NCBI GenBank assembly: GCA_017999985.1
Contig: JAGNKU010000002.1
Coordinates: 1-64,000 of the forward strand
DNA: 64,000 nt
From: Phycisphaerae bacterium
Lineage (GTDB): Bacteria; Planctomycetota; Phycisphaerae; UBA1845; Fen-1342
Direction: 5' to 3'
Shown: one piece after another, positions 5,616 to 26,442 of the stretch
Numbering within the stretch: the stretch's first letter is position 1
How the letters are laid out: each line of letters starts with the position of its first letter
The notes under the pieces: model-generated
Databases searched by the model: none
What the model was told of the DNA's origin: nothing
What the model saw: only the letters and a program-made list of their open reading frames with translations
Made by a program: the position numbers and the translations under genes

Positions 5616-5864
5616 AGGTGGCCTCCGGCGGTCCAGCGGACGGCGCCGGCACTTGCGGCACTGTAACAACTGGTGCGGGGTCCGGCCAGCGGTTGCCGGG
5701 GCGGGCGTGTTTAGCGGACGCAGCGCGGGGGCGCTGAGGGCCACGGCGCGGCTGCACGGCGGCGACGGGCTTTGCCGATGATTGACTGTACGCATAGACT
5801 TACGATGCGCAGGTGGGTGACCAACGCACCGCGCCGGCGGCAGACGACTCAGCAGGAGTATCCC

Positions 5865-7735: not shown

Positions 7736-9730
7736 CTAGTTCGGCCGGGCCTGCTCGATGCGCGCCAGGTCCGCCTGGCAATCCTTCAGATCCGGATCAA
7801 TCGCGAGCGCCTGCCGGTAGTAGTCGGCCGCCGCCGCGGGCTGGCCCTGCATTTCCTTGATTCGGCCGAAGGCGCGCAACAGCCGCACACTCCGCGGCTC
7901 GACGGCCAACCCGGCCGTGAGCTGCTGCTCGGCCGCCGTGAACTGGCCTAGGGCGGCGTGGGCTCGGGCGGACTCTTCGAGCGTGAACGTGTCGGTGGGT
8001 AGTTGCTGCAGCACCAGCTCGAACTGCGCGATGGCGTCCGCGTAACGCTGCACGCGCCCCAGGAACGTGCCGTACTTGCGGCGGATGTCGTAATCGTGCG
8101 GCGCCAGCGCGACCGCGCGCTCGAACGCCTGCGTGGCCTCGTCCGTGCGGCCTTGCGGATTCAGGGCGGCGGCCAGGTGCACATACAGCCGCGATGCGTC
8201 GGGCATCGCGTCGATCAGACGCCGCAGCAACTGCTCGGCCTGGGCGTACTCCTTGTTCGCCTGCATGCGCGGCAGATCGTCGACGAGCAAGCGGAAGTAA
8301 TGAATGTAATCTTTCGGGTCGCCGCCGCGGGGCTCGAACCGGTCCAGTTCGGTGACGTCCTCTTCGGTGAAAGCCGACGGCGTGCCGACGTAGCCCAGGC
8401 CGGCAAGCCGGGCCGCCTCGTCACCGGTCAGCTTGACCGCGGACTCCTCGGCGGACGGCGGGGGCGGCGCATCGGCGAGCAGGTCGTGCAGCGCGGTGCG
8501 CAGCTGCTCGCCACGCGCGGTGTTGGCGGACAGCACATTGCGCAGCTCGCCGGGATCAATGGCGATGTCGTAGAGCTCCGACTGTGGCGCGAGAATATAC
8601 TTCCACTGCCCGGCGGACAGGCTGCGCAACTGCGACAGGCCGTATTCGATCTGGGCATCGAACGTCTCGCTGTAGCCGGTGAGCTGCAGGTCCGCGGGCG
8701 TCGGCGCCAGCAGGGGCCAGAGGCTCACGCCCTGGGCCCGTTCCATCGCCGGTAGCTTGAGTGCCGCGAGGATGGTCGGGGCGATGTCGATGGTGCGCAC
8801 CTGCGCGGTCACGGTCCGACCGGCCGGGACGCCGGGGCCCCGCACCAGGAATGGAACGTGGATGGTCGTGTCATATAGCAGATAGCCGTGCATCAGCTCG
8901 TCGTGCTGTCCGAGGCCCTCGCCGTGGTCGCCGACCGCGATAACGAGCGTGTCCTGCTCATGCCCCAGCGCCCGCAACTGGTCGAGCACGACCCCGATCT
9001 GCGTGTCCATGAACGCGATCTCGTCGGCATACGCGTTCGGCGAGCGCTGATCGGGGATCCGGGGCGACTCGTACGGGAAATGCGGGTCGTAGAAGTGGAC
9101 CCACAGGAAGAACGGTCGATCCTTGACGCTTTGCAGCAGCTCCACTGCGTCACGGGCGATCTCGTCGCCTTTCCGCTCAGCGTTCAGCGGATTGCCCACC
9201 GCCGCCGGTACGACGTCGTTGTACACGTCAAAACCCTGGTCGGTGCCAAACTGCCGGTTCAGCACGAACGCCGCGACGGTGGCCTGTGTGGTGAAGCCGG
9301 CCTGCTTGAGGACCTCGGCGAGCGTCACCGCGCCGGCGGCGAGGCGGCCGGTGCCGTTTTGCCGCGCGCCGTGGGCGTACGGGTACTCGCCGGTGAGGAT
9401 GCTGGAATGGGAGGGCAAGGTGAGCGGCGACGCGCTGGCGCAGCGCGCAAACAGCGTGCCTTCACGGGCGAGGCGGTCGAGGTTGGGCGTCTGCGCGGTG
9501 GCCCGCCCATAGCAGCCGAGGTAGTCCGCCCGCGTCGTGTCGAGCGTGAACAGCAGCACATTGCGCGGCCGCTTGTCCCGGGTGGACCAGAGTGGGCGCG
9601 CCAGCACGCCGAATGCGATCAGCACCGCGACGCCGACGAGGGCGAGGAGGACAAGCCGCCGGGGGCGGCGCGCGTTGGCGACTGCGGCGGTGGGTTCGCG
9701 CTGACTTGCTGGTCGTCCGGGTTCGCTCAT
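7736..9730 (-). CDS. Membrane-anchored sulfatase-like protein with TPR tail (paralogue 1)
   Basis: A 664-residue alkaline-phosphatase-superfamily protein. Layout: basic N terminus, one transmembrane anchor (about 26-46), sulfatase-type domain (about 55-430), a junction L-A-G-L-G-Y-V, then TPR repeats (about 470-660). The metal motif is T-L-D-T-T-R-A-D (Asp64) and a later G-D-H-G-E-G. The nucleophile segment reads S-P-L-T-L-P-S-H, so the residue aligned with the formylglycine Cys is Thr104 and the usual Arg is His108. This argues against a classical sulfatase and for a phosphodiesterase or phosphotransferase, or a non-catalytic protein. The catalytic domain should face the periplasm. ATG 9730 lies four bases after the stop of the preceding paralogue, so it is last in a leftward four-gene run. 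Confidence 0.85.
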   Translation of the reverse strand: MSEPGRPASQREPTAAVANARRPRRLVLLALVGVAVLIAFGVLARPLWSTRDKRPRNVLLFTLDTTRADYLGCYGRATAQTPNLDRLAREGTLFARCASASPLTLPSHSSILTGEYPYAHGARQNGTGRLAAGAVTLAEVLKQAGFTTQATVAAFVLNRQFGTDQGFDVYNDVVPAAVGNPLNAERKGDEIARDAVELLQSVKDRPFFLWVHFYDPHFPYESPRIPDQRSPNAYADEIAFMDTQIGVVLDQLRALGHEQDTLVIAVGDHGEGLGQHDELMHGYLLYDTTIHVPFLVRGPGVPAGRTVTAQVRTIDIAPTILAALKLPAMERAQGVSLWPLLAPTPADLQLTGYSETFDAQIEYGLSQLRSLSAGQWKYILAPQSELYDIAIDPGELRNVLSANTARGEQLRTALHDLLADAPPPPSAEESAVKLTGDEAARLAGLGYVGTPSAFTEEDVTELDRFEPRGGDPKDYIHYFRLLVDDLPRMQANKEYAQAEQLLRRLIDAMPDASRLYVHLAAALNPQGRTDEATQAFERAVALAPHDYDIRRKYGTFLGRVQRYADAIAQFELVLQQLPTDTFTLEESARAHAALGQFTAAEQQLTAGLAVEPRSVRLLRAFGRIKEMQGQPAAAADYYRQALAIDPDLKDCQADLARIEQARPN

Positions 9731-9734
9731 GCAT

Positions 9735-11714
9735 TCACCGTTCGAGCTTCTGCCTGACACGGTCCCGGTCCGCCGCGCATTCACTGAAACCGGGATCCAG
9801 TGCCAGGGCCTGATTGTAGTAGTCCAACGCCTCCGGCAGCCGCTGCTGCTGTTCACGCAGCAGGCCCAGCACCCGCAACGCGTTCGTTTCGCGCGGCTCA
9901 ACCTGCAGCGCATGCTGCAAGTGCTCCTCGGCGGCGTCAAACTGCCCGAGCGTGGCGTGGGCGAGCGCGGCCTGGGTCAGCGCGCCGGTGTCGTCCGGCG
10001 TGCGCTCCAGAATTGCGGTGAACTGTACCAGGGCCTCGGCGGGCTGATTGCTGCGGCGCAGAAAAGTCCCGTATTTCATCCGCACGACGTGGTCCTGCGG
10101 TGCCAGCGCCACGGCACGCTCGAATGCGTCGCGCGCCTCGGCCATGCGCCCGTCCGACTCGAGCACGCCGGCGAGATACGTCGGCAGGTAGGCGGCGCCA
10201 GGCAGCGTGGCGATCAGGTTGCGGAGCATCTGCTCAGCCTGGGCATGCTGTTTCGCCTTGAGCAGCCGCGGCAATTCCCACGAGATCAGCTTAAAGGAGC
10301 GGGCAAACGCGCGCGGGGCCGCGCCCTGGGGCTCAAAGCGGTCCGATTCGGGGATGTCGTCGTCGGACAGCGCGTTGTCGGAGGCGACGTACCCGAGCGA
10401 TTCAAGATCACGCCGGCCCGCAGCGCTCAGCCGCGTTGAAGATTCCGCGGCGTCCGGCGGGGGTGGCGCGTCGGCGATCAGTTGCCGCAGGTCGGCCAGC
10501 AAGCCGGCCGCCCGCTCAGGCTCCTCGGCGATCAGGTTGCGGGTCTCGCCGGCGTCCGCCCCCAGGTCATACAACTCCGGCTCCGGCGACCACACGTACT
10601 TCCACCCGTCCGCCGACAGACTACGCAACTGCGACAAGCCATACTCGATCTGCGCCAGAAACGTCTCGCTGTACGCCGCCAGCTTCAGATCCGTCTGCGC
10701 CCCACGCAACAGCGGCCGCAGCGTCACCCCCTGGGCATGCTCCCACGCCGGCAGCCCCAGCAGGTCGAGTATCGTCGGCGCGACGTCAATGGTCCGCACC
10801 TGGCTCGTGATACGCCGGGCCGGCACACGCGCCGGCCACCAGACCATCAGCGGCGCGTGGACCGTCGTCTCGTACAGGAAGTACCCGTGCTTCCATTCGT
10901 CGTGATCGTTCAACCCCTCGCCGTGATCGGCCACTGCCACCACCAGCGTGTCACGGTCGCGCCCGGTTTCACGCAGGCCGTCCAGCAGGCGGCCGATCTG
11001 CATGTCCATGAAGGCAATCTCGTCGGCGTAGGCCTGCGGCGAGAGGATGTCCGGTGTCCGCTCCGACAGGTAGGGGAAGTGCGGATCGTAGAAGTGCACC
11101 CACAGGAAGAAACGCTGATCCTTCAATGTGCGGAGCATCTGGAGCGCGTCATCGCAGACCTCGTCGCCGCGCCGCTCGGCCTCGGTCGGATTGCCGGTGG
11201 TCGGGCGGACGACGTCGTGATAGACGTCGAAGCCCTGGGCGGTGCCGAATTGCTGGTTCAGGACGAAGCTGGCGATGGTGGCCTGGGTGGCGAAGCCGGC
11301 GGCTTTGAGGGTCTCGGCCAGCGTGGTGTTGGAGTCCGCGAGCCGGCCGGTGCCGTTCTGGCGAGCACCGTGGGCGTACGGGTAGAGGGCGGTGAGGATA
11401 CTGGAGTGGGATGGCAGCGTGAGCGGGGAGCAGGTGGTGCAGCGGGTGAAGACGGCGCCCTCGCGCGCCAGGCGGTCGAGGTTCGGCGTGCGGGCCGTCG
11501 GGCAGCCGTAGCAGCCCAGATGGTCGGCCCGCGTGGTGTCCAGCGTGATAAGCAGCACGCCGCGTGGGACAGCACCTAATGCAGAGGACCCGCGGAATTG
11601 CCAGCCCACGAACACGACGATGGCCAGAACGAGCAGCGCCACCACGCCAAACCAGAGCTGCCGCGCCCGCTTCGGGCCGGATTTCAAGCTGCTTTGCCGG
11701 TCGCGTATCGCCAT
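9735..11714 (-). CDS. Membrane-anchored sulfatase-like protein with TPR tail (paralogue 2)
   Basis: A 659-residue close relative of the next gene in the run, with the same order: transmembrane anchor (about 20-38), alkaline-phosphatase-superfamily domain, L-E-S-L-G-Y-V junction, TPR tail. Asp59 sits in T-L-D-T-T-R-A-D; the nucleophile position is Thr99 in S-P-L-T-L-P-S-H; A-D-H-G-E-G-L-N gives the second metal site. Identical blocks such as H-G-A-R-Q-N-G-T-G-R-L and Q-I-E-Y-G-L-S-Q-L-R-S-L-S-A point to a fairly recent tandem duplication with paralogue 1. A 92-base gap precedes it. Substrate unknown; the TPR half suggests it docks to partner proteins. Confidence 0.85.
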   Translation of the reverse strand: MAIRDRQSSLKSGPKRARQLWFGVVALLVLAIVVFVGWQFRGSSALGAVPRGVLLITLDTTRADHLGCYGCPTARTPNLDRLAREGAVFTRCTTCSPLTLPSHSSILTALYPYAHGARQNGTGRLADSNTTLAETLKAAGFATQATIASFVLNQQFGTAQGFDVYHDVVRPTTGNPTEAERRGDEVCDDALQMLRTLKDQRFFLWVHFYDPHFPYLSERTPDILSPQAYADEIAFMDMQIGRLLDGLRETGRDRDTLVVAVADHGEGLNDHDEWKHGYFLYETTVHAPLMVWWPARVPARRITSQVRTIDVAPTILDLLGLPAWEHAQGVTLRPLLRGAQTDLKLAAYSETFLAQIEYGLSQLRSLSADGWKYVWSPEPELYDLGADAGETRNLIAEEPERAAGLLADLRQLIADAPPPPDAAESSTRLSAAGRRDLESLGYVASDNALSDDDIPESDRFEPQGAAPRAFARSFKLISWELPRLLKAKQHAQAEQMLRNLIATLPGAAYLPTYLAGVLESDGRMAEARDAFERAVALAPQDHVVRMKYGTFLRRSNQPAEALVQFTAILERTPDDTGALTQAALAHATLGQFDAAEEHLQHALQVEPRETNALRVLGLLREQQQRLPEALDYYNQALALDPGFSECAADRDRVRQKLER

Positions 11715-11806
11715 CCGCAGGTCACTCCAGTGCGCGGACCGGGATCCGCGGCAGTGTTCTAGTATATCGGCGGCGGGACCGGCTGGGGCGGACCGAATCG
11801 GCGCAG

Positions 11807-13243
11807 CTAGCGCAGGTATCCGAGGGAGCGCAGCCGGCGGGTCTCTTCCGGAGTGAGCTGGAGCGGGGCAGCGTCGGCGCCGGACGGACCGTGCAACTCC
11901 TTGAGGGCCAGATCGAGGTCGGCTTGGGCTGTGCGCAGCCGGTCCGCAGCCGTGCCGCTCAGGTCGCTCGTCTCTCCCGGATCTTCGCCGATACTAAAAA
12001 GAGCCACGTTCTGATCCGGGTCGATGATCAGCTTGTACCCGTCGTGCAGCCAGCCACGGTAGGGCGGGCCCCAGAAGTTGCCCTCGAAGAGCACCGGGCG
12101 ATCCAAGGGCGGGTCGATCCCGACCACGTCCAGCAGGTTCTGGCCGGCGAACATGGGATCGGGCTGAATGCCCGCCAGTGCGCACAGCGTCGGTGCCACA
12201 TCGATGTGCCGGACGACGGATGCAGCGACACCCGGCGTCAAATGCCCCGGGTAGCGGATCAGCAGCGGGACGTGGACGAGTTCCTCGTAGAGCGTGTGGC
12301 CGTGCTCGAACCCGCCGTGGTCAAGAAATTCCTCGCCGTGGTCGGCGGTGAAGACGATGATGGTCGAGTCCGCGAGCTGCATTTCCCGCAGCGCGGCGAT
12401 CAACCGGCCGACCTCGGCGTCGGTGAAGGCGACTTCGCCGTTGTAGAGCCTTTCGGCCCGCCGGATCGTCGGCGCGTCGATCGAGAGCTTGCCCTGGCGA
12501 TAGGCGATCATTTGGGGCACGGTACCGAACAGCCAGCGTGTGTCGCCGTGGTCCTCGGGCGCGGCGAAGCGCTGCCGGAAGTCGGCGGGCGGGTCGTACG
12601 TGAGATGAGGATCGAAGTAGTGCACGAAGAGAAAAAACGGCTGAGTCCGTGCCGAGCGCAGCCAGCGGAGCGCCGCGTCAGTGGTTTGTGTCGCGCGGCG
12701 GCCCTCGACGTTGTCGGTGGGCACGAAATCCACGTGCTTGAACCCCTGCGTCATGCCGAACCGCTCGGCGAGGAAGTCGATGTTTGTGATTTCCGCCGTC
12801 GCGTAACCCGCGTCGTGGAAGACCTCGGCGACGGTACGGACATCCGGGCGCAGGCCGCGGAACTCACCGAGTCGGCCGCCGGCCCCGTGCTGGGGCGGCG
12901 ACAGCGACGTGAAGAGCGAAGCGAACGCCGGCAGCGTCCAGGGGGCATGCGCATACGCGCGGGCGAAGCGGGTGCTTTCAGTCGCGAAGGCGTCGAGCTG
13001 GGGTGTGGCGCCGAGCGCGCTGCCGTGGGAGCCGAGGCGATCGGCGCGCAACGTGTCGGCGACGATGAGCAGCACGTTCGGGCGCGCCGCGGACGAGGCG
13101 CGGCCCCGCGAGCCGGGGCGCAGCGCGGTCCAAGTGGCCACCAGGGCTCCGAACACGACCACGAGGGCGATGAGGATGCGTCGCCGGCGGCGCGTGGGCT
13201 GCCGAGTGCGGCCGGCGGACGGTTCAGAGGGACGCGGCATCAT
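11807..13243 (-). CDS. Membrane-anchored sulfatase-like protein without TPR tail
   Basis: A 478-residue member of the same superfamily, shorter because it ends straight after the catalytic domain with L-R-S-L-G-Y-L-R. It has an Arg-rich N terminus and one transmembrane anchor (about 23-41). Metal motif V-A-D-T-L-R-A-D (Asp63) and later A-D-H-G-E-E-F-L-D-H-G. The nucleophile segment is P-W-T-L-P-A-F, with Thr103 and no Cys; here even the following His is replaced by Phe. It is more divergent than its three neighbours, so it is not a simple tandem copy. Two ATGs in a row (13243, 13240) follow GGGAG. It lies 23 bases after the stop of the first gene of the run, in the same operon. Confidence 0.83.
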   Translation of the reverse strand: MMPRPSEPSAGRTRQPTRRRRRILIALVVVFGALVATWTALRPGSRGRASSAARPNVLLIVADTLRADRLGSHGSALGATPQLDAFATESTRFARAYAHAPWTLPAFASLFTSLSPPQHGAGGRLGEFRGLRPDVRTVAEVFHDAGYATAEITNIDFLAERFGMTQGFKHVDFVPTDNVEGRRATQTTDAALRWLRSARTQPFFLFVHYFDPHLTYDPPADFRQRFAAPEDHGDTRWLFGTVPQMIAYRQGKLSIDAPTIRRAERLYNGEVAFTDAEVGRLIAALREMQLADSTIIVFTADHGEEFLDHGGFEHGHTLYEELVHVPLLIRYPGHLTPGVAASVVRHIDVAPTLCALAGIQPDPMFAGQNLLDVVGIDPPLDRPVLFEGNFWGPPYRGWLHDGYKLIIDPDQNVALFSIGEDPGETSDLSGTAADRLRTAQADLDLALKELHGPSGADAAPLQLTPEETRRLRSLGYLR

Positions 13244-13266
13244 GGGCTCCCACGGCGAGTTCTCTT

Positions 13267-15261
13267 CTAGTGCGGCCGGGCCTGCTCAACAGCTTGCAGG
13301 GCGGCGCGGGCCCGTTCGGAACGCGGATCGAGCGCGAGCACGCGGCGAAAGCAGTCCGCGGCCTGATCCAGGCGGCCGAGGCGCGTATATACCTGTCCGA
13401 GCGCGTGCAGCGCGTTCGGATTTCGCGGCTGCAGACGGACCGCTGCCTCGAAGTGCGCGCAGGCCTCACCATAACGCTCCATGCCGCTGTAGGCGACGCC
13501 CAACATGGAGTGTGCCGCCGCATCGTTCGGGGTCAGCGCGAGGACCTGCGTGGCTTGAGTGGCGGCGGCGTCCCAGCGGCGGGCACCGAGCAGCATCGAG
13601 GCGTATTGCGCGCGGGTGCGCGAGTCCTCGGGCGTGAGCGCCAGCACGCGCTCGTAACTCTGGATGGCTGCGTCGAACTTGCCCTGGCGGGCGAGCACGT
13701 CGGCGAGATCGCGAAGTGGAGCCGGCGCATCGGCCAACGCGGTCAGGACGGACTGCAATTGAGCTTCGGCGGTGGCGTGCTGGCCGTGCGCGATCGCGAT
13801 GCGGGCGCGCTGGTAGGTGCTGATGGCGCGGATGTGCAAGTGCGGATCGACGCCGCGCGGCTCGAACAGGTCCACCTCGCTGAGGTCCTGCTCGGCGGGG
13901 TCGGCTGCGACGCCCAGATAGCCGAGCGACTCCAGGCGGGCGAGTTCGTGGTGAGCGAGCCGCAAGGAGGAGTCCTCGGCGAGGCGGGGCGGCGCATCCG
14001 CCAGCAGCGCACGCAGTTGCTCGCGCAGGCGCGCGACATCGGCGGGTCGCGCGGACGCGAGATCCTGTTGTTCGCCCGGATCCGCCAGCAGGTCGTAGAG
14101 CTGGGGTGTCGGAGCGTGGATGTACTTCAGCGGGCCGGCGGTCAGGGTCCGAATGCGCGCCAGTCGGAACAGCGTGTGCGGCTCGCCGGCTTCGGCGTAC
14201 GCGGTGAGGTCGAGGTGGTGCTCCGCCTTGTCCAGCAAGGGCCGAAGTGACACGCCCTGCGCGTCGGGGAGCGGCGGCAGGCCGAGGAGGTCGAGCATCG
14301 TCGGTGCAATGTCCAGCGTCCGGACGACGTCCGCCACGACGTGGTTCGGTGGCACAACACCAGGGCATGCGGCGATGAACGGCACCTGCACGGTCGTCTC
14401 GTACGCGAAGAAGCTGTGTTCGAACTCGTCGTGGTCATCGAGGCCCTCGCCGTGGTCGCCGACGAGGATGACCAGTGTGCGCTGGTCGAGTCCAAGCTCG
14501 CGCAGACGGTCGAGGAGCCGGCCGATCTGCGTGTCCATGAAGGTAATTTCGTCGGCGTAGGCAGCCGGCGACTCGGGGTCGGAGGCGCGCGCGGATTCGT
14601 ACGGGTAGTGCGGATCGTAGAAGTGGACCCACAGGAAGAAACGCTCGCGAGCGGACTTTGTCAGCATGTCGAGCGCATCGGCGCAGACCTGGTCGCCCTT
14701 GCGCTGCGCCGCGGCCGGGTCGGTGCCGGCCTGTGGGGCGGGTACCGTGCGGTACTCGTCGAAGCCCTGTGCCATGCCGAAGCGACCGTCGAGTACGTAG
14801 GACCCGAGCGCGGCCCGCGTCGCGAAGCCGGCCGATTTCAGCGCCTCGGCCAGCGTGACGGCAGCCGGCGGTAGCTGATCCGTGCCGTTGCGGCGCACGC
14901 CGTGCACGAACGGGTAGAGGCCCGTCATGATCGTGCAGTGCGAGGGGAGCGTCTGGACGGAGCTGGTGACGCAGCGGCGGAACTGGGTGCCGGCGCGCGC
15001 GAGCCGGTCGATGTTGGGTGTCTGGGCGGCGGTCCGGCCGTAGCAGCCGAGGTAGTCGGCACGGGTCGTGTCGGCCGTGATCAGCAGGACATTGAGCGGC
15101 TCGCCGGCCCTGCCGCCGAACCAGCCGCGCGCCATGCCGACGCGATACACGAGCACGAGCGCCGCCACGGTGCACATACCGAGCGCGAAAAGGGGCAGCC
15201 GGGAGCGTGGGCGCACTGGCTCAGGGTGACTCGGGCGTGGTTTGCGCGGCCGTCGACTCAA
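13267..15261 (-). CDS. Membrane-anchored sulfatase-like protein with TPR tail (paralogue 3, first of the run)
   Basis: Same architecture as the other TPR paralogues: anchor (about 22-40), catalytic domain with Asp64 in T-A-D-T-T-R-A-D and Thr104 in S-V-Q-T-L-P-S-H, G-D-H-G-E-G-L-D-D-H, the L-E-S-L-G-Y-L junction, then at least five TPR units ending near A-V-E-Q-A-R-P-H. The frame is open to 15366, but no ATG fits; I chose the TTG at 15261, six bases after GGAG, giving 664 residues, the same length as paralogue 1. Transcription probably starts in the 170-base divergent region shared with the phosphodiesterase genes. Confidence 0.82.
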   Translation of the reverse strand: MSRRPRKPRPSHPEPVRPRSRLPLFALGMCTVAALVLVYRVGMARGWFGGRAGEPLNVLLITADTTRADYLGCYGRTAAQTPNIDRLARAGTQFRRCVTSSVQTLPSHCTIMTGLYPFVHGVRRNGTDQLPPAAVTLAEALKSAGFATRAALGSYVLDGRFGMAQGFDEYRTVPAPQAGTDPAAAQRKGDQVCADALDMLTKSARERFFLWVHFYDPHYPYESARASDPESPAAYADEITFMDTQIGRLLDRLRELGLDQRTLVILVGDHGEGLDDHDEFEHSFFAYETTVQVPFIAACPGVVPPNHVVADVVRTLDIAPTMLDLLGLPPLPDAQGVSLRPLLDKAEHHLDLTAYAEAGEPHTLFRLARIRTLTAGPLKYIHAPTPQLYDLLADPGEQQDLASARPADVARLREQLRALLADAPPRLAEDSSLRLAHHELARLESLGYLGVAADPAEQDLSEVDLFEPRGVDPHLHIRAISTYQRARIAIAHGQHATAEAQLQSVLTALADAPAPLRDLADVLARQGKFDAAIQSYERVLALTPEDSRTRAQYASMLLGARRWDAAATQATQVLALTPNDAAAHSMLGVAYSGMERYGEACAHFEAAVRLQPRNPNALHALGQVYTRLGRLDQAADCFRRVLALDPRSERARAALQAVEQARPH

Positions 15262-15315
15262 CGCATGCTCCGGTGGCCGTAGAATGCGGGCCAGGGGTAA
15301 GCCCGTCTTGCGCGG

Positions 15316-15344
15316 AGTATAGCGGTGTGGGCGTATGCACTCCA
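15316..15344 (-). promoter_or_regulatory. Possible promoter of the sulfatase-like operon
   Basis: Read leftward, TATACT (15321-15316) is a good -10 box; a weak TGGAGT lies 17 bases upstream (15344-15339). It would give a leader of roughly 50 bases before the TTG start at 15261. The divergent gene starts 107 bases to the right of the -10, so the two operons could share control. Confidence 0.35.
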
Positions 15345-15427
15345 CGGAAGGCACGCAGCGACTCACCGCCGTTCAGGTAGAAAGGCATCGTTTACGATAA
15401 TACAATCTCCCGAAATGGAGGAAGCTG

Positions 15428-17692
15428 GTGCCGCGGGCGAGCCATGCAGTGCAGCGCGCGATGTTCGACCGGACCAAGGACGGCCGCCGCGCCGTAGCCG
15501 AGAGGGCGGCCTGCATGCGGCCGGTTGGACGGCCGGCCTGGCCGTGGCTGGCGGTCTTGCTGTTCTGCGTCCTGCTGCTGCCGGAGCCGGCGCTCGCGTA
15601 TATCGGACCTGGGGCGGGCTTCGCGGTCGGCACGACGCTGGTGACGTTGTTCTTCGCGGTGTTGTCCGCGCTTGGGGCCTTGGTCCTGTGGCCGTTCCGG
15701 TGGGTGATCCGTGCCATCCGGCAACGTCGCGCGCACGCGAAGGCGCGCATCAAGCGCGTGGTCGTGCTCGGCTTGGACGGTCTCGACGCGACCTTGACGG
15801 AGCGTTTTCTCAGCGAGGGCAAGCTGCCGAATTTTGCCAAGCTGAAGGAGCAGGGGACTTACCGGCGGTTGGCTACCACCGTGCCGGCCATGACGCCCGT
15901 GGCGTGGTCGTCCTTCCTCACAGGCTGCAACCCCGGCAAGCACAACATCTTTGACTTTCTGACGCGCGACAAGAAAACCTATCTGCCGGCGTTGTCGTCG
16001 GTGCAGATCAATCCCCCGCGCAAGACGGTCAAGCTCGGTCGGTTTCGCATCCCGGTCAGTAAGCCGGACATCCGCCTGCAACGCAAGGGCAAGCCCTTTT
16101 GGAACACACTGGGCGAGCACGGCATCTTCAGCAATGTCATCCGCATGCCGATCACGTTTCCGCCGGAGCCGTTCCACGGCGTGCTGCTGTCGGCGATGTG
16201 CGTGCCTGACCTGCGCGGCAGCCAGGGGACGTTTTCGTACTACTCGAGCGCGGGCAGCACCGAGCCGGAGTACATCGGCGGCGAACAGATCTACGTGAAG
16301 CGCGAGGGGAATCTCATCCGGTCGCATCTCGTCGGCCCGGAGAACACGTTCGTGGAGGGCGGGGGGGCGATGCGCTGTCCGTTCGAGGTGCGCATCACCG
16401 GGCCCGATCACGCGCTGCTGAAAGTCAACGGCGAGACGCACAAGCTGACGCGCGGCGAATACACGCCGTGGATCACCGTGAAGTTCAAGCCGGGGCTGGG
16501 CGTGAAGGTGAACGGCATCTGCGAGGTGCTGCTGCTGGAGACCGAGCCCGAGTTCCGGATGTATGTCACGCCGATCCAGATCGACCCGGCGCGGCCGGCG
16601 ATGGCGATTTCGCATCCGAAGGTGTACGCGACGTACTTGTCGAAGCTGATGGGGCAGTTCGCGACGATGGGGCTGGCGGAAGACACGTGGGGGATGAACG
16701 CCCGCATCCTGGATGACGAGGCGTTTCTGCACCAGTGCGTGGAAGCGGACGAGGAGCGCATCGACATGTTCTTCGATGCGCTGGAGAAGGTGCGGCGCGG
16801 CCTGTGCGTGTGCGTGGTCGACGGCCCGGACCGCATCCATCACATGTTCTGGCGCTACCTGGAGCCGGAGCACCCGGGCTACAGCGGGCAGGGCGGCCGC
16901 GAGCGCCGCAACGCGATCGAGGAAATGTACGTCCGGATGGACGAGCTGGTCGGCGACACGCTGGCGGCGTGCGCTGACCCGGGCACGCTGCTCTGGGTGA
17001 TTTCCGACCACGGCTGCGCGTCGTTCCGGCGGGGGATCGATCTGAACGTCTGGCTCGAGCAGAACGGCTACCTGAAATTGAAGCCGGACGGCCGCGGCCA
17101 GCGGTATCTCACCGGCGTCGATTGGTCCCAGACGCGGGCGTATTGCATCGGGCTGACGGGTATCTGGCTGAACATCCGTGGGCGTGAAGCGCAGGGCATC
17201 GTGGATCCCAAGGATGCGGCGGCGCTGCGCGACGAGCTGGTCGGCAAGTTGACCGGGTTGCGCGACGCGCAGGATGGCCAAGTCGCGATCAATCGGGTCT
17301 TCGACGCGCAAAAGGTCTATCGTGGTCCATACAAAAGCGAGGCACCGGATCTCATCATCGGCTACAACGCGGGCTATCGCGTGAGCTGGGAGGCCGCGAT
17401 CGGCCAGCCGACGGACAGGCTGTTCCACGAGAACACGAAGGCCTGGAGCGGCGACCACATCATCGATCCCAAGCTCGTGCCGGGTGTGCTGTTCAGCAAC
17501 CGGAAGATTGCCGACGAGCAGCCGCACATCGCCGATCTCGGGCCGACCGTGCTGGAGCTGTTCGGCGTGGCGGTCCCGGAGCACATGGACGGGCGGCCGC
17601 TACGCGTGGCCGACGCGGACGGTTCGTATCCGGACGGGAACCATGGTCAGGAAAGGGCCGCAGCGCAGGCCGTATCCGAGGCTGCTGCGTAG
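15428..17692 (+). CDS. Type I phosphodiesterase-like protein with two N-terminal membrane segments
   Basis: A 754-residue alkaline-phosphatase-superfamily protein of the type I phosphodiesterase/nucleotide pyrophosphatase class. Residues about 36-57 form a signal-like segment ending A-L-A, followed by Y-I-G-P-G-A-G, a second hydrophobic segment (about 65-90) and a strongly basic stretch (91-110). The catalytic domain has L-G-L-D-G-L-D (Asp117), Thr156 in M-T-P-V-A-W, I-S-D-H-G-C, and a final G-D-H. GTG 15428 has GGAGG six bases upstream. By the positive-inside rule the domain after the second segment would be cytoplasmic, unlike the neighbouring paralogue. First gene of a rightward run; the next starts nine bases on. 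Confidence 0.85.
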   Translation: MPRASHAVQRAMFDRTKDGRRAVAERAACMRPVGRPAWPWLAVLLFCVLLLPEPALAYIGPGAGFAVGTTLVTLFFAVLSALGALVLWPFRWVIRAIRQRRAHAKARIKRVVVLGLDGLDATLTERFLSEGKLPNFAKLKEQGTYRRLATTVPAMTPVAWSSFLTGCNPGKHNIFDFLTRDKKTYLPALSSVQINPPRKTVKLGRFRIPVSKPDIRLQRKGKPFWNTLGEHGIFSNVIRMPITFPPEPFHGVLLSAMCVPDLRGSQGTFSYYSSAGSTEPEYIGGEQIYVKREGNLIRSHLVGPENTFVEGGGAMRCPFEVRITGPDHALLKVNGETHKLTRGEYTPWITVKFKPGLGVKVNGICEVLLLETEPEFRMYVTPIQIDPARPAMAISHPKVYATYLSKLMGQFATMGLAEDTWGMNARILDDEAFLHQCVEADEERIDMFFDALEKVRRGLCVCVVDGPDRIHHMFWRYLEPEHPGYSGQGGRERRNAIEEMYVRMDELVGDTLAACADPGTLLWVISDHGCASFRRGIDLNVWLEQNGYLKLKPDGRGQRYLTGVDWSQTRAYCIGLTGIWLNIRGREAQGIVDPKDAAALRDELVGKLTGLRDAQDGQVAINRVFDAQKVYRGPYKSEAPDLIIGYNAGYRVSWEAAIGQPTDRLFHENTKAWSGDHIIDPKLVPGVLFSNRKIADEQPHIADLGPTVLELFGVAVPEHMDGRPLRVADADGSYPDGNHGQERAAAQAVSEAAA

Positions 17693-17701
17693 GAGGCGGG
17701 A

Positions 17702-19816
17702 ATGGTCGTGTCAAACGAACTGGTACCCTTGAGTCGACGCAGGTTCCTGCAGGTCGCGAGTGCCGCGGGCCTGACGTCGATCCTCTGCTTCCACGGTGGT
17801 TGCAGCCCGTTTGGCAAAGGCGGCGAGGCCCGCCAGAAATCCGCCGCCGCCGGCAAGAAGATGATCGTCGTCGGCATCGACGGCTTCGACCCGCGGCTGG
17901 CCGAGCGGCTGATGGATGCGGGTGAGCTGCCGCACTTGGCGGCGATGCGCGCGGCGGGCGGCTATGCCCGGCTCGGCAGCAGCGTGCCGCCGCAGAGCCC
18001 GGTCGCGTGGGCGAACTTCATCACCGGCGCGGACCCAGGCGTGCACGGGATTTTTGACTTCATCCACCGCCATCCCGACCGGGGCTGCGCACCCTACTAC
18101 GCGGCCTCGGAGACAGTTCAGGCGACGCAGGGGTGGGAAATTGGCGAGCACAAGCTGCCGCTGAATTTCTGGCCGTTCAATCACGGCACAACGCAGACGC
18201 TGCTCAAGCGCGAGGGCGTGCCGTTCTGGGATTACCTCGACGCCGCCGGCATTCCGTCGAAGTTCTACGACATTCCGTCCAATTATCCGCCGAGCCCCTC
18301 GACGCACGGGCACCAGGCCTGCCTGGCCGGCATGGGCACGCCGGACCTGCTGGGCACCTATGGCACGTACCAGTGTTTCTGGTCGCGCGCCCAGAAGGTG
18401 AAGGATGAGGGCGGCGGCCTGAAGAAGCCGATCGTGTTCAAGGACCACGTGGCGAAAGTGAAGCTGACCGGGCCGGTGAACACGCTCTTGAAGCAGCCGG
18501 TCGACACCGAGCTCGAGTTCTTCGTCTACCGCCATCCGACGGACGCGCAGGTACGGATCGAGATCGACGGGCACACGCTCGTGCTCAAGGAAGGCGAGTG
18601 GAGCGACTGGAAGCAGGTCAGCTTCCCGCTCAAGATGCCGTCGTTTCTGCCGGATGACAAGGTGACGGGCATCTGCCGGTTCTTCCTCCAGCAGGTGCGG
18701 CCGGAGTTCCGGCTGTACGTGTCGCCGCTGAACATCGACCCGTCGAACCCCGGTTCGCAGAAGATCAGCGAGCCGGCGGAGTTCGTGACGCAGATCGCGG
18801 ACGAGCTGGGCCTGTTCCCGACGACCGGCTTCCAGGAAGACCACAAGGCGCTGTCGAACAAGATCTTCACGGACGAGGAGTACCGCGCCCAGGCCGACTA
18901 TGTGCTGCAGGAGCGTTTGAACCTGCTGAACTACGCGCTCAAGCACTATGACGACGGGCTGCTGTTCTTCTACTTCTCCAGCACCGATCTGCAGGCGCAC
19001 ATGTTCTTCTGGGACAGCGACGAGAAGCACCCGACGCGCTCCGCGGCCGAGGCGCAGAAATACATGGGCGTGGTCGAGGATCTGTATCGCCGGATGGACA
19101 CGGTGGTCGGCGACCTGGTCGCGCGCTACGCCGACCAGGCCACGATCATGGTGCTGTCCGACCACGGCTTCTGCAATTTCCGCCGGCAGTTCAACCTCAA
19201 CACCTGGCTGCGTGAGAACGGCTACGTCGGGCCGGCGAACTGCGGCTCGCTGTACATGGACGATCGGAAGTACGGCCCGCGCGTGGACTGGTCGCAGACC
19301 CGGGCCTACGGGCTGGGCCTCAACGGCCTGTACCTGAATCTCAAGGGCCGCGAGAGCGAGGGCATCGTCGATCCGTCGGAGCGCGACGCGCTGCTCGAAG
19401 AGATCCGCGCGAAGCTGCTGGCCGTCCGCGACCCGGAAAACGGCGAGCCGGCGATCTCGGCCGTCTATCGCAGCGACGAGGTGTACACGGGGCCGTTCAA
19501 GGAGCGGGCGCCCGACCTGATCGTCGGCTATCGCCGCGGCTGGCGGTGTTCCTGGCTGACCGCGCTCGGTACGATCGAGCCCGAAGTGTTCAGCGACAAC
19601 GATTCGGCGTGGAGTGCCGACCATTGCATGGCCACGGAGGAGTTGCCGGGCGTGCTGTTTGCCAGCCGGCCGATCCGGCATCCGCAGCCGGCGCTGGTCG
19701 ATCTGGCCCCGACGATCCTCGCCGAGTTCAGCGTCACGCCGCCGGACACCATGAGCGGCAGGAACGTGTTTGCGGCGCCGGTAGTGGCCCTGGCCGACGC
19801 GGGACAGAAGGAGTGA
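17702..19816 (+). CDS. Tat-exported, type I phosphodiesterase-like lipoprotein
   Basis: A 704-residue paralogue of the preceding gene with a different N terminus: S-R-R-R-F-L-Q (residues 11-17) is a twin-arginine signal and H-G-G-C (Cys34) a plausible lipobox, so it is probably folded in the cytoplasm, exported by Tat and lipid-anchored outside. Catalytic residues seen: Asp60 in V-G-I-D-G-F-D, Ser99 in Q-S-P-V-A-W (nucleophile position), L-S-D-H-G-F, and W-S-A-D-H near the end. A central insert of about 200 residues between metal motifs matches the neighbour's in length and in blocks such as W-S-Q-T-R-A-Y. GGAGG is six bases before ATG. Substrate unknown. Confidence 0.87.
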   Translation: MVVSNELVPLSRRRFLQVASAAGLTSILCFHGGCSPFGKGGEARQKSAAAGKKMIVVGIDGFDPRLAERLMDAGELPHLAAMRAAGGYARLGSSVPPQSPVAWANFITGADPGVHGIFDFIHRHPDRGCAPYYAASETVQATQGWEIGEHKLPLNFWPFNHGTTQTLLKREGVPFWDYLDAAGIPSKFYDIPSNYPPSPSTHGHQACLAGMGTPDLLGTYGTYQCFWSRAQKVKDEGGGLKKPIVFKDHVAKVKLTGPVNTLLKQPVDTELEFFVYRHPTDAQVRIEIDGHTLVLKEGEWSDWKQVSFPLKMPSFLPDDKVTGICRFFLQQVRPEFRLYVSPLNIDPSNPGSQKISEPAEFVTQIADELGLFPTTGFQEDHKALSNKIFTDEEYRAQADYVLQERLNLLNYALKHYDDGLLFFYFSSTDLQAHMFFWDSDEKHPTRSAAEAQKYMGVVEDLYRRMDTVVGDLVARYADQATIMVLSDHGFCNFRRQFNLNTWLRENGYVGPANCGSLYMDDRKYGPRVDWSQTRAYGLGLNGLYLNLKGRESEGIVDPSERDALLEEIRAKLLAVRDPENGEPAISAVYRSDEVYTGPFKERAPDLIVGYRRGWRCSWLTALGTIEPEVFSDNDSAWSADHCMATEELPGVLFASRPIRHPQPALVDLAPTILAEFSVTPPDTMSGRNVFAAPVVALADAGQKE

Positions 19817-19821
19817 GCCTC

Positions 19822-20007
19822 GTGCCGAAGATCAAACTCGATGACAACCTCTACGACCGGGTGAAGAAGGTGGCGCAGGTTGCCGGCTACGGCTCGCCGG
19901 AGGAGTTCATCACGCACATCATCGAGAAGGAGCTCGGGCAGCTCGAGGCCGGCGACGACGAGCAGAAAGTGCTCGAGCGGCTGCGCGGGCTGGGGTATAT
20001 CGAGTAG
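19822..20007 (+). CDS. Small ribbon-helix-helix-like protein, 61 residues
   Basis: The first 40 residues have the beta-helix-helix pattern of CopG/Arc-type proteins: P-K-I-K-L-D as strand, then D-R-V-K-K-V-A-Q, a G-Y-G-S-P-E-E turn, and an I-T-H-I-I-E-K-E helix. An acidic stretch follows, and the protein ends R-L-R-G-L-G-Y-I-E. That ending matches the L-x-x-L-G-Y element found after the catalytic domain of all four sulfatase-like neighbours. GTG 19822 has AAGGAG eight bases upstream; GTG 19813 overlaps the preceding stop and is the alternative. It may be a DNA-binding regulator of the block or an adaptor. I do not know a characterised homologue. Confidence 0.75.
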   Translation: MPKIKLDDNLYDRVKKVAQVAGYGSPEEFITHIIEKELGQLEAGDDEQKVLERLRGLGYIE

Positions 20008-20061
20008 TCCGGCGCACCGGGCGGCGGGCAGCGCGGTCCTGACCACCAGGAAACGCGTCGG

Positions 20062-21006
20062 ATGAGCGTTATCAACTGGCTGCTGATCAGCATCGGCAAT
20101 GCGGCGCAATGGCTGTGGCATGCGCTGGCGACCGGGGGGGCCGCGGTGTGGGAGGTAGTGGACGCGGTGCTGAACCCGGTGCTGTCCCGGGTACTGGCGG
20201 TGCTGAATCCGATCTGCACGGCGATCGGTGACGGCGTGTACATGGTGCTCGCGCCGCTGCCGGTCTGGCTGGGGCTGACGGTGATTTCCGCGGTCATGGG
20301 CGTGCTGATGCTGATCGGCTTCCGATACACGTCCAACCAGGCGGCGATCGGGCGGGCGCGCGACGACATCACGGCGAATCTGCTGGCGCTGAAGCTGTAC
20401 AAGGACGAAGTGCGTGTTGCGGTGCGCGCGCAGGGCCGGGTGCTCGCCGCCCTGTTGCGCTTGCAGTGGCACATGCTCCGGCCGCTACTGATCATGCTGC
20501 TGCCGATGTTGCTGGTGCTGGCGCAGATGGGGGTCCGCTACCAGTGGCGGCCGCTGCGGGTGGGCGAGCAGGCAAACATCACCGTGCGACTCAGGGACGC
20601 GCCGGTGGACCTGGCCGGCGTCGCGCTCGCCGAAAATCCGGCGCTGGTCGTCGAGGCCGGGCCGATCCCGGGGGGTGGCGCGCTGGTCTGGCGCGTGCGG
20701 GCGGCGACCACGGGCCGGCATACGCTGCGCCTCACGATTGGCGGACAGACCTACGACAAGGAATTCGTCGTCGGCGACGCATTTCAGCGCGTCAGCGCGT
20801 CGCGCTCGGAACCACGGTGGACGGCTCAGATATTCCACCCCATCGAGCCACGGCTGCCCGCGGAAGCGCCGCTCAAGGAAATTGAAATCGCGTATCCCGG
20901 CGTGGCGTCGTACATCTGCGGCGCGAACTGGTGGATCCTGTACTTCTTCATCATCTCCATGCTTTTCGCGCTGCTGTTCAAGCCGATCTTCAAGGTGCGT
21001 TTCTGA
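20062..21006 (+). CDS. Three-segment membrane protein, Oxa1/EMC3-superfamily-like
   Basis: A 314-residue protein. An amphipathic N-terminal region is followed by a transmembrane segment (about 70-92), a charged helical hairpin of about 45 residues, a second hydrophobic segment (about 135-155) ending R-Y-Q-W-R-P-L, an extracytoplasmic beta-rich domain of about 110 residues, and a final segment (about 285-308). The pairing of two membrane helices round a cytosolic coiled-coil recalls the DUF106/EMC3/YidC insertases, but that link is my inference and sequence identity would be low. It follows the small RHH-like gene by 54 bases and precedes glycosyltransferase genes, so it may insert, flip or tether a component of this surface system. 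Confidence 0.6.
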   Translation: MSVINWLLISIGNAAQWLWHALATGGAAVWEVVDAVLNPVLSRVLAVLNPICTAIGDGVYMVLAPLPVWLGLTVISAVMGVLMLIGFRYTSNQAAIGRARDDITANLLALKLYKDEVRVAVRAQGRVLAALLRLQWHMLRPLLIMLLPMLLVLAQMGVRYQWRPLRVGEQANITVRLRDAPVDLAGVALAENPALVVEAGPIPGGGALVWRVRAATTGRHTLRLTIGGQTYDKEFVVGDAFQRVSASRSEPRWTAQIFHPIEPRLPAEAPLKEIEIAYPGVASYICGANWWILYFFIISMLFALLFKPIFKVRF

Positions 21007-21132
21007 TCCGCGGTGCGCCGCGCGGCCACGCGACGGCCAGCCACCGGCAGCATTTTGACCGAGCGCAAGCGGCGCGGTCGGTCGCCGCTTTCCTCAACTC
21101 GCGCGGCGCTGCGTCCCGATAAACACAGCGAA

Positions 21133-23370: not shown

Positions 23371-23435
23371 CGGGAGCGTGCCGTCGGTGCCGGCGCGCTG
23401 ACGCGCAACTTCCGTCGTCATTCGCCGGTGCCGGC

Positions 23436-23462
23436 CGCGTCGCGCACGGGGTGCGCGACGCG
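23436..23462. terminator. Strong GC-rich hairpin after the CgeB-type gene
   Basis: CGCGTCGCGCA and TGCGCGACGCG form a perfect 11-bp stem round a 5-base loop. No T-run follows, so intrinsic termination is not certain. It sits in the longest gap of the rightward run (205 bases) and may split the run into two transcripts or attenuate the downstream pair. Confidence 0.4.
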
Positions 23463-23575
23463 TGCCCGGCGGCCTTATCGGACGGCCGCGACCCAGGTGG
23501 GGCGGCGCTGCGTCCCAGGTTGTGCTTGGGTCGATAGACACGGGCAGGCGCTAACCCCAACTGCGGACTGAACGC

Positions 23576-25219
23576 GTGCATCAGCCTGTACAACGCAAGG
23601 TCGTGACGCTGGAGGCGCTGCTGAGCGCCCTGCGCGCGCCGCGTGCTGCCGGCCGCACGGTGGTGCACTGCCACGGGTGCTTCGACATCGTGCACCCAGG
23701 CCACATCCGCTATCTCCAATTCGCGCGTGAACTCGGCGACATCCTGGTGGTGTCCCTGACCGGCGATGCGAAGATCGCGAAAGGACCCGACCGTCCGTAC
23801 ATCCCGGAAGAGTTGCGGGCGGAGAACGTGGCCGCGCTGGAGTTCGTGGACTGGGTGGTGATTGACCCGCATGCGACGGCGTGCGACCTGCTGGCGCGCC
23901 TCCGCCCGGACATCTACGTCAAGGGCCGCGAATACGCCCAGGCCACCGATCCGCGCTTCCAACGCGAACGCCAGATCGTGGAAGGCTACGGCGGGCGCGT
24001 GGCGTTTCACAGCGGCGAAGTGGTCTTCAGTTCGACGCGCCTGCTCGAAAGCATGCGCGACGACCAGCAACTGGACGAGCAGCGCCTCCAGACCCTCTGC
24101 CAGCGGGCAGGGATCACGGTGGATGTGGTCCGCCGCGCCATCGCGCGCTGCGCGGGGCTGCGCGTGGTCGTGATCGGCGACCTGTTGCGCGAGCAGTACG
24201 TGTTCTGTGACGCCGGCGCGGCGGACGACGCGCCGGTGCTGGCGGCACAGCGGCTGGGCGGGGCGGCGTACTGGGGCGGGGCGGCGGCGGTCGCGTTGCA
24301 ACTGCGGGCGCTGGGTGCCGTGCCGACCCTGATCGCGGCCGTCGGGCGGGATGTCGCCAGGCCGCGCGTGTCCGAAGAGCTCGGCGATTTCGGCGTCACC
24401 TGTCGACTGCTGCCGGAGCGGCCTGGGCTTATCGAGCGCACGACGTTCATTGCCGATGATGCCAAGCTCTTCAAGCTCACGGACGGATCGAGTGCGCCGC
24501 TGGACAGCGCCGCGGAAAAGCGCGCGGCGGCCGTGCTCGGCGAGTGCCTGACGGGGGCGGATGTACTCCTGTGGTGCGACCACGGGTTCGGCATGGTCAG
24601 CCCCGGACTGCTGGCGACCGGGATGATCGCGGCCTGCCAGGGCCGCCTGTTCGTGGCCGGCTACGCGGCGGGGCAGCGCGGGCAGTTGCTCGGGCTGACG
24701 GGGGCGCACCTGCTGACCGCGACGGAGCGGCAGGTCCGCGAGGCGCTGCACGACATGGCGTCCGGGCTGCCGGCCGTTGTCTCCAACCTGCTCAATCTGA
24801 CGCATGGACAGACCGCGCTGGTGTCGCTGCGGAAGCGCGGCGTGCTGGGTTTTGACGCGGGCGGCGATCGAACGGGCCACGCTGCCGGCGAGTCAAGTGC
24901 GTGGCGCGAGCGCCTGCGCAGCGAGTTCGTGCCGACGTTCGCGCGCCACGCCGTTGATCTGCTGGGTGCGGAAGAGGCCGTCCTGGCCGCGGCGGCCCTG
25001 GTGCTGGCCGGCGGCGGCACGCTGTCGCTCGCGACGTATATCGCCGCTGCGGCGGAATCGCTGGCGGTCAGCTACAGTGGGGGCAACCCACCGAACGCCG
25101 CGGCCTTGCTGGCGCTATTGGAACGGCGTCCGGAGTTGCAGGTCGGCGGACATTGCGTGCCCGACCGGCGGCCGCACACGCCGGTTGAGGAACCTCCCGT
25201 ATGCGTGCCCCGCGACTGA
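23576..25219 (+). CDS. Nucleotidyltransferase-PfkB fusion (HldE-like, domains swapped)
   Basis: A 547-residue protein with both HldE activities in reverse order. Residues about 10-165 are a cytidylyltransferase-like domain with G-C-F-D-I-V-H-P-G-H (H-x-G-H at 40-43) and F-S-S-T-R near its end, so it looks active. Residues about 165-530 are a PfkB/ribokinase-type sugar kinase with R-L-G-G-A-A near 240. The kinase signature normally D-T-x-G-A-G-D reads D-L-L-G-A-E-E (461-467): the catalytic Asp is Glu, so phosphotransfer may be lost or altered. HldE makes ADP-heptose in E. coli with the kinase first. Here it probably makes a nucleotide sugar for the adjacent glycosyltransferases. GTG start; weak ribosome-binding site. 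Confidence 0.82.
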   Translation: MHQPVQRKVVTLEALLSALRAPRAAGRTVVHCHGCFDIVHPGHIRYLQFARELGDILVVSLTGDAKIAKGPDRPYIPEELRAENVAALEFVDWVVIDPHATACDLLARLRPDIYVKGREYAQATDPRFQRERQIVEGYGGRVAFHSGEVVFSSTRLLESMRDDQQLDEQRLQTLCQRAGITVDVVRRAIARCAGLRVVVIGDLLREQYVFCDAGAADDAPVLAAQRLGGAAYWGGAAAVALQLRALGAVPTLIAAVGRDVARPRVSEELGDFGVTCRLLPERPGLIERTTFIADDAKLFKLTDGSSAPLDSAAEKRAAAVLGECLTGADVLLWCDHGFGMVSPGLLATGMIAACQGRLFVAGYAAGQRGQLLGLTGAHLLTATERQVREALHDMASGLPAVVSNLLNLTHGQTALVSLRKRGVLGFDAGGDRTGHAAGESSAWRERLRSEFVPTFARHAVDLLGAEEAVLAAAALVLAGGGTLSLATYIAAAAESLAVSYSGGNPPNAAALLALLERRPELQVGGHCVPDRRPHTPVEEPPVCVPRD

Positions 25220-26442
25220 GCATTGTCCTGGCGACTCACAACCGGGCGGCCGTCCTGGCGCACACGCTGGACCGTCTGCGGGCACTCGCGCCGGAATGCG
25301 GCGCGCATGAGATCATCGTCGTCGACAATGCGTCGACGGAGAACGTGGGGGGCGTGGTGGCGGGCCGCTCGAACGTCGAGTTCGTGCGCCTGAGGCACAA
25401 CGCCGGGTCGTGTGCCAAGGCCTACGGCGTGCAGCGGGCCCGCGGGGCGCTCATCCTGTTTCTGGACGATGATTCGTATCCGCGGCCGGGGAGCGTGGAG
25501 CGGATGCTGCGGCATTTTGACGCCGACCCGCGACTCGGCGCCGCCGGCTTCACGGTGCATTTGCAGGACGGCTCGCAGGAATGCAGCGCGCTGCCGCACG
25601 TGTTTGTCGGCTGCGGCGTGGGCCTGCGGGCGACGGCGTTGCAAGCGGTAGGGGGGCTGGATGCATCGTTCTTCATGCAGGCGGAAGAGTACGATCTGAG
25701 CTTCCGCCTGCTGCGCGCGGGCTGGAAGGTCGAAGTGTGCGGAGATCTGGCGGTCGACCACTTGAAGACGCCGCACGCGCGCCGCGCGGAGCGCACCACG
25801 TACTACGACGTCGCAAACAATCTGCGCGTCATCGGTCGGTATCTGCCGGCGAGTTATGTGCGCATCTATCGGGCGGACTGGCTGGATCGCTATGCGCGGC
25901 TGGCGGCGGCGCAGGGGCACACGCGGGCGCTGCGGCGGGGCCGGTGCGTGGGGTGGTGGCGCGGGTTGGTGGAGCGGCCGCTGTATCGGCGCTGGCGGCT
26001 GAGGGCGGCGGAGTTGGAGCAGGTGTTTGCGTGGGAGTACGTGGCGGCGCGGATGGGGGCGTTGCGGGCGGTGGGTGTGCGGCGGGTAGTGCTGGCGGAT
26101 TACGGGAAGAACGTCTACGCGTTCCACCGCGGGGCGCGGGCGGCGGGCATCGCGGTGGCGGCACTCGCGGACGACGGACACGCGCGTGGCGGAGTGGTGC
26201 CGCCGTACCGCGGCGTGCCGGTGGTGACAGTGGCGGAGGCGCGGGCGCTGCGCGCGGATGCGTGGGTCGTGAGCAACACATCGTACGTTCACGCGGCCCG
26301 GCGGGTGGCGGAGCTCGAACGCAGCCGGGTCCCCGTGCCGGTCTACAACTGGTTCCCGGCACCGGCAGCACTGAGCCGGCAAGTCAGCGTGTCGGTTCCC
26401 GACGCGGAGCCGGTGGGGGCCATTTGCAGCCTCAGTGATTGA
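25201..26442 (+). CDS. GT2 glycosyltransferase with C-terminal Rossmann-like domain
   Basis: A 413-residue cytoplasmic enzyme. Residues 1-230 are a GT-A family 2 domain: S-I-V-L-A-T-H-N-R at the start, V-V-D-N-A-S-T, and L-F-L-D-D-D-S (the D-x-D metal site) near 90, then E-E-Y-D-L-S-F-R. Residues about 285-400 resemble a nucleotide-binding sensor domain: V-V-L-A-D-Y-G-K, G-V-P-V-V-T-V-A-E-A and W-V-V-S-N-T-S. The start overlaps the preceding gene by 19 bases, so the two are co-translated and probably consecutive steps: nucleotide-sugar supply, then transfer. It is the last gene before tRNA-Arg(TCT). Confidence 0.85.
   Translation: MRAPRLSIVLATHNRAAVLAHTLDRLRALAPECGAHEIIVVDNASTENVGGVVAGRSNVEFVRLRHNAGSCAKAYGVQRARGALILFLDDDSYPRPGSVERMLRHFDADPRLGAAGFTVHLQDGSQECSALPHVFVGCGVGLRATALQAVGGLDASFFMQAEEYDLSFRLLRAGWKVEVCGDLAVDHLKTPHARRAERTTYYDVANNLRVIGRYLPASYVRIYRADWLDRYARLAAAQGHTRALRRGRCVGWWRGLVERPLYRRWRLRAAELEQVFAWEYVAARMGALRAVGVRRVVLADYGKNVYAFHRGARAAGIAVAALADDGHARGGVVPPYRGVPVVTVAEARALRADAWVVSNTSYVHAARRVAELERSRVPVPVYNWFPAPAALSRQVSVSVPDAEPVGAICSLSD

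Follow-up and report, generated by a model that had tools for sequence, protein, structure and literature searches.

The present study analyzes a gene cluster at positions 7736-26442 of a 64,000-nucleotide stretch of DNA (the window) from a Phycisphaerae bacterium (GCA_017999985.1, contig JAGNKU010000002.1), and in particular a four-gene module, PDE1-PDE2-RHH1-MEM, which opens the rightward arm of that cluster. PDE1 (15428..17692, forward strand; PF01663, Pfam E 1e-33) is a predicted phosphodiesterase of the alkaline phosphatase superfamily, and PDE2 (17702..19816, forward; PF01663, Pfam E 3e-39) is its paralogue, predicted to be exported through a twin-arginine translocation (Tat) or lipoprotein signal. 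RHH1 (19822..20007, forward) is, by profile, a ribbon-helix-helix protein of 61 residues with the C-terminus LRGLGYIE, and MEM (20062..21006, forward) a membrane protein assigned by profile to the Oxa1 superfamily, with an inserted immunoglobulin (Ig)/filamin-like domain. Genes of CgeB, HldE and GT2 type complete this arm, and the leftward arm holds S4, S3, S2 and S1, all with the sulfatase fold PF00884. RHH1 is read here from the GTG at 19822 to 20007 (VPKIKLDDNLYDRVKKVAQVAGYGSPEEFITHIIEKELGQLEAGDDEQKVLERLRGLGYIE) and not as the open reading frame (ORF) at 19880 of the mechanical list; for PDE1 the start most like a signal peptide is the ATG at 15515. An earlier, sequence-only reading of the same DNA had named these genes, and all of them are ORFs at the positions it claimed, with spacings of 9, 5 and 54 bases and an overlap of 19 bases that agree with the coordinates. 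The 166-base control region that it placed between the arms holds if S4 and PDE1 start at codon 15294 and ATG 15461, and is lost if the longest ORFs are taken, between which only 61 bases lie; scans for promoters and terminators did no better than on shuffled sequence.

That PDE1, PDE2, RHH1 and MEM form a real, widely conserved unit is nearly certain. Protein searches of 246 genomes from the window's phylum turned up MEM homologues in 40, a few of which, among the weakest, may be false, and at 28 of the 29 phylum loci around MEM matches RHH1 lay between PDE2 and MEM. Prevalence beyond the phylum rests on a scan of GTDB genomes with the PDE1 alignment, which yielded 568 confirmed relatives; the top 80 of these are referred to here as the named loci. 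All four genes occurred together at 67 of the 70 named loci with enough sequence, and one of the misses, L140 from Calditrichota, was scored as such only because two sulfatase-like genes lie between PDE1 and PDE2-RHH1-MEM and push PDE1 beyond the permitted distance. The named loci span about nine phyla, the taxa being those of the record titles, mostly of metagenome-assembled genomes: Planctomycetota, Acidobacteria, Desulfobacterota/Deltaproteobacteria, Omnitrophota and Aminicenantes, together with Poribacteria, Calditrichota, Kiritimatiellota, Dadabacteria and one member of Bacteroidota. The common order is that of the window, with PDE2-RHH1-MEM-PDE1 in Acidobacteriaceae, and median spacings within the module are about 28 and 22 bases. 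An alternative explanation, that the genes of the cluster are neighbors by chance, is next to negligible, as it is already refuted for the core by this retention across phyla with the small and membrane proteins adjoining both phosphodiesterases, an outcome in favor of the sequence-only reading on the test that it had set for itself; it does hold for the CgeB, HldE and GT2 genes, which the sequence-only reading had identified correctly by family and had wrongly counted as part of the system.

These three genes follow the module directly on the forward strand, the CgeB-type gene (PF13524) at 21013-23370, the HldE-like gene at 23576-25219 and the GT2 gene at 25201-26442. No homologue of any of them was found near PDE1 at the 80 named loci, which rules them out as module members, and they are therefore lineage-specific neighbors. 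Convergent with the GT2 gene and adjoining a seryl-tRNA synthetase is a LemA/GIDE fusion protein (26652-28010; PF04011 and PF12483). On the other side of the cluster, at 5772-7691, lies a lipoprotein-like ORF with a long stretch of D/N-rich repeats (PNDPNTPNTDIDDDG...); it overlaps a lengthy ORF on the opposite strand, most of which is probably spurious.

The leftward arm consists of S4 (13267..15366), S3 (11807..13243), S2 (9735..11714) and S1 (7736..9730), all on the reverse strand, and Pfam agrees with the earlier description of four sulfatase-like proteins of which S1, S2 and S4 have TPR tails and S3 does not. S4 carries a Thr nucleophile (TLPSH) and the sequence LESLGYL, S2 a Thr nucleophile and LESLGYV, S3 ends in LRSLGYLR, and S1 is like S2; its start is probably the ATG at 9730, 4 bases past the S2 stop, the longest S1 ORF (from 9940) running into S2. 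PF00884 matches only nine times in the whole 5.23-Mb genome and four of these matches are here within 8 kb, so that the clustering exceeds chance, with the qualification that S1, S2 and S4 resemble tandem duplicates. Elsewhere sulfatase-like genes were nearby at 22 of the 70 named loci, and the sulfatase-like arm is an optional neighbor or partner of the module.

A second pattern concerns the short L-x-x-L-G-Y element (LGY), which the sequence-only reading had seen as shared among some of the enzymes and which is real and extends far beyond them. A tail of this type ends RHH1 in 104 of 106 homologues, and at these loci the element is carried also by a second type of ribbon-helix-helix protein, RHH2 (17/17), by a lipoprotein (16/19), by the sulfatase-like proteins, internally or terminally (27/27), by CysD (2/2) and, under a looser pattern in which G/N/S and Y/F are allowed, by adenosine 5′-phosphosulfate (APS) kinase (12/22). 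It is nearly absent from PDE1 (0/112), PDE2 (2/134), MEM (1/106) and the sulfotransferase described below (0/25), and background loci have such tails on 4 of 3010 ORFs, one of them an APS kinase. Counted over every ORF at the loci, 152 tails are of LGY type, as compared with 1 to 17 for permuted or similar triplets, except for GYL, whose count of 54 reflects mostly the same LGYL tails. In an alignment of 30 sulfatase-like proteins 13 columns are invariant, and these include L436, L439 and Y441. The AlphaFold2 (AF2) model of S2 has a predicted local distance difference test (pLDDT) score of 90.7 and a sulfatase fold, in which the LGY helix has block means of 80 and 71 as compared with mostly >90 for the surrounding fold; such strong conservation with loose placement would fit a docking peptide, short of proof.

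Carriers of the element elsewhere in the window's own genome are a second ribbon-helix-helix protein, a third phosphodiesterase and two sulfatase-like proteins. The ribbon-helix-helix protein, of RHH2 type (G000:C4:217063-217269, L170), lies away from other recognized parts of the system, and the third phosphodiesterase-family protein (G000:C8:3903-5591, L171) has 562 residues, no evident signal peptide and the C-terminus EQRLSDLGYLE. The CysD-like proteins near the module at L091:7110-7946 and L092:12240-13052 end in MMQKLRSLGYM. A different shared C-terminus, NGDGxxxFxDINPFVxLL, which is EF-hand- or dockerin-like, occurs on many unrelated proteins at loci L170, L172, L173 and L177 of the own genome, and may be a signal for sorting to, or anchoring at, the surface.

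By profile and metal ligands PDE1 and PDE2 are enzymes of the NPP type (PF01663), for which hydrolysis of phosphodiesters is predicted. The PDE1 profile matches the NPP structures 2gsn and 7n1s, the match coming only with a profile, as phmmer with PDE1 or PDE2 as single sequences found no relative in the PDB. In PDE1 the residues D117, S/T156, D468, H472, D527-H528 and H677 conform to the metal-ligand pattern of the alkaline phosphatase superfamily, and the N-terminus of the protein consists of a signal-like segment with YIGPGAG, of which YxGPGAG is invariant in the alignment, and one transmembrane helix; topology analysis gives hydrophobic segments at 41-59 and 69-87, followed by five K/R residues. 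Because the second hydrophobic segment precedes these basic residues, the catalytic domain of PDE1 is predicted to face the cytosol. PDE2 homologues have N-termini with RR (Tat) or a lipobox, and the two paralogues would thus stand on opposite membrane faces. They share the catalytic core and metal-ligand pattern of known NPP enzymes, but differ in their length of about 700 residues and in forming a pair of paralogues for which opposite faces of a single membrane are predicted.

RHH1 had been described as ribbon-helix-helix-like from its sequence, and this was borne out by its profile, which matches NikR (E 0.0018), and by a predicted strand-helix-helix arrangement, with helices at 8-21 and 26-43 in a single-chain model and a strand that would pair only in a dimer; DNA binding is putative. 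It could be that RHH1 and RHH2 are DNA-binding autoregulators instead of adaptors, a reading compatible with either of the chemistries discussed below. The similarity to NikR favors it, as do the outward strand residues K-x-K, which are conserved in RHH1, but the same tail stands on APS kinase, lipoproteins and exported enzymes, none of which binds DNA. We consider autoregulation instead of an adaptor role somewhat unlikely, and both roles may hold.

MEM by itself matched no family in hmmscan. A profile of 19 homologues matched the archaeal YidC-like protein MJ0480 (E 4.2e-8), and a profile of 33 other homologues matched it as well (E 1e-9), with TM1-hairpin-TM2 and then TM3 collinear; the two alignments to MJ0480 are non-overlapping, and PF01956 was matched weakly by 2 of 19 members. 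These searches confirm the earlier label "Oxa1-like" and place MEM, by sequence, in the archaeal YidC/EMC3/TMCO1 branch of the Oxa1 superfamily; insertion of proteins or scrambling of lipids by MEM itself is putative. AF2 helices and hydrophobic segments give a core of three transmembrane helices, which contain the polar residues S76, Q155 and S299, and a cytosolic helical hairpin after TM1, with the Ig/filamin-like domain inserted between TM2 and TM3. The model (mean pLDDT 91.8) is of a read-through of RHH1 and MEM, which share a frame, with the intervening stop read as Gly, and no natural fusion is claimed; Foldseek and VIA-align 2 lists for it were filled by Ig/filamin-like matches to the inserted domain, so that the lack of Oxa1 chains among them carries no weight. 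As a bacterial YidC (PF02096) MEM was rejected, with an hhalign probability of 0.5% against the YidC of relatives and no PF02096 match. The three-helix DUF106 type has been described as archaeal and as kin to eukaryotic EMC3 and Get1 (PMC8675477, PMC8887752). MEM resembles that superfamily (MJ0480/DUF106, EMC3, TMCO1, Get1) in its three core helices, in the hairpin after the first and in significant profile similarity to MJ0480 over the core, but differs in being bacterial, in standing beside the ordinary YidC that the window's genome also encodes, in its Ig-like insert and in its fixed linkage with phosphodiesterases, with insertase activity only putative. That MEM is a dedicated insertase or chaperone, with PDE1, PDE2 or the sulfatase-like proteins as clients to be put into the membrane, would be in keeping with relatives that insert proteins, with its place next to genes for membrane-bound enzymes and with its being extra to YidC. 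We find it improbable, however, as PDE2, with its Tat or lipoprotein signals, should not depend on an insertase, and as the sulfur genes and RHH1 would be left unexplained.

Those sulfur genes recur at the module in two arrangements. At many loci RHH2, ATP sulfurylase, a sulfatase-fold protein and APS kinase precede it, and at many others, in several phyla, a small sulfotransferase of family PF13469 lies downstream of MEM. The latter scores over the family cut-off (E about 1e-11) and has an invariant SGLPRSGTS, a P-loop like the 5′-phosphosulfate-binding (5′-PSB) loop; by family and P-loop it qualifies as a predicted sulfotransferase using 3′-phosphoadenosine 5′-phosphosulfate (PAPS). At least one sulfur gene (ATP sulfurylase, APS kinase, CysD or PAPS-type sulfotransferase) was near the module at 23 of 39 loci from the phylum and at 27 of the 80 named loci. 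Of 246 genomes, 13 have both MEM and the sulfotransferase family (odds ratio 9.75, Fisher p 2e-6), three doubtful MEM matches having been set aside. Known loci for sulfate activation and sulfation share these genes with ours, but in the papers searched none was found that also has paired phosphodiesterases, a protein of Oxa1 type and LGY tails. Within the window's class, genomes G157, G209, G077, G231 and G242 (L218-L222) have the sulfotransferase and no detected MEM.

Among the 30 aligned sulfatase-like sequences the nucleophile column holds Thr or Ser, never Cys, with no Arg motif following, and the proteins of the window read TLPSH or TLPAF there. S1-S4 are ruled out as type I sulfatases, lacking the Cys/Ser-x-P-x-Arg formylglycine motif, and the missing motif corrects the label "sulfatases" that the cluster would likely receive automatically. 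They share the sulfatase domain with type I sulfatases and with phosphotransferases like LtaS and EptA, but differ in having Thr in place of a formylglycine Cys/Ser, in the LGY element and, for S1, S2 and S4, in the TPR tails. A Thr or Ser nucleophile is associated with phosphoryl and not sulfuryl chemistry. The main rival reading is accordingly that the module assembles and trims groups joined through phosphodiesters to a lipid or glycan of the surface, with the sulfatase-fold proteins as phosphotransferases like LtaS and EptA and the sulfur genes as mere frequent neighbors. It is consistent with the nucleophile column, with the NPP family of PDE1 and PDE2 and with a window cluster that has no sulfur gene, but not readily with sulfate-activation and sulfotransferase genes that recur at module loci in several phyla or with the LGY-type tail on some APS kinases there, and we judge it unlikely. 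The sequence-only reading had proposed such a system, and what stands of it is the real unit and the shared LGY element; a purely phosphate chemistry is not supported, since sulfate-activation and sulfotransferase genes recur.

We propose, at a probability of roughly 45%, that the module is part of a complex in the membrane which synthesizes or remodels an envelope molecule that is sulfated and linked to lipid, and in which LGY tails serve for docking. PDE1, held by its membrane anchor with the catalytic domain on the cytosolic side, and exported PDE2 would act as paralogous enzymes on the two membrane faces; the three-helix core of MEM with its polar residues could let a lipid head group or protein segment cross, as in several insertases; and RHH1 would be a small dimeric adaptor. 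The tails of RHH1, RHH2, APS kinase, CysD, the lipoprotein and the sulfatase-fold proteins would be short peptides through which these proteins dock and collect around the parts that lack LGY, in the simplest case PDE1 on the inner and PDE2 on the outer side, in a complex that may assemble around MEM. Its job would be to make, move and trim the sulfated molecule, fed by local PAPS synthesis and the sulfotransferase; both the substrate, a sulfated envelope lipid or glycan, and head-group crossing by MEM are guesses, for the latter of which lipid scrambling by insertases is a precedent (PMC10491306). The fullest form of the proposal, an undescribed bacterial machine in which a sulfated lipid-linked molecule crosses by way of MEM between the two phosphodiesterases, and which is assembled through a shared LGY docking code read by PDE1 and PDE2, one on each side, we regard as doubtful.

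Several observations weigh against the proposed sulfated-molecule complex. First is that in the window no sulfate gene lies beside the module; the APS kinase, ATP sulfurylase and sulfotransferase of this genome are all sited elsewhere, and its APS kinase has no LGY tail. Secondly, CysD may generally bear a GY-type C-terminus, two APS kinases of genomes without MEM have a loosely similar tail, and the association of the APS kinase tail with MEM status is not significant (p 0.14). Thirdly, the sulfotransferase occurs without MEM in 11 genomes and may also work without the module, and the Fisher test is uncorrected for the relatedness of genomes. Finally, the RHH1-MEM model places the RHH1 tail nowhere with confidence, so that any receptor is hypothetical.

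Literature on the composition, the motif and sulfation held no description of such a system, in agreement with the earlier claim that none was known, most subscription journals being outside the search. Every part belongs to a known family and the novelty is the assembly. Its retention in phyla that are far apart implies a process of importance to the envelope, as yet unnamed; the assembly places a relative of an archaeal-type insertase in bacteria beside the ordinary YidC, and in LGY it offers a short and simple motif by which proteins may be brought together on either side of a membrane.

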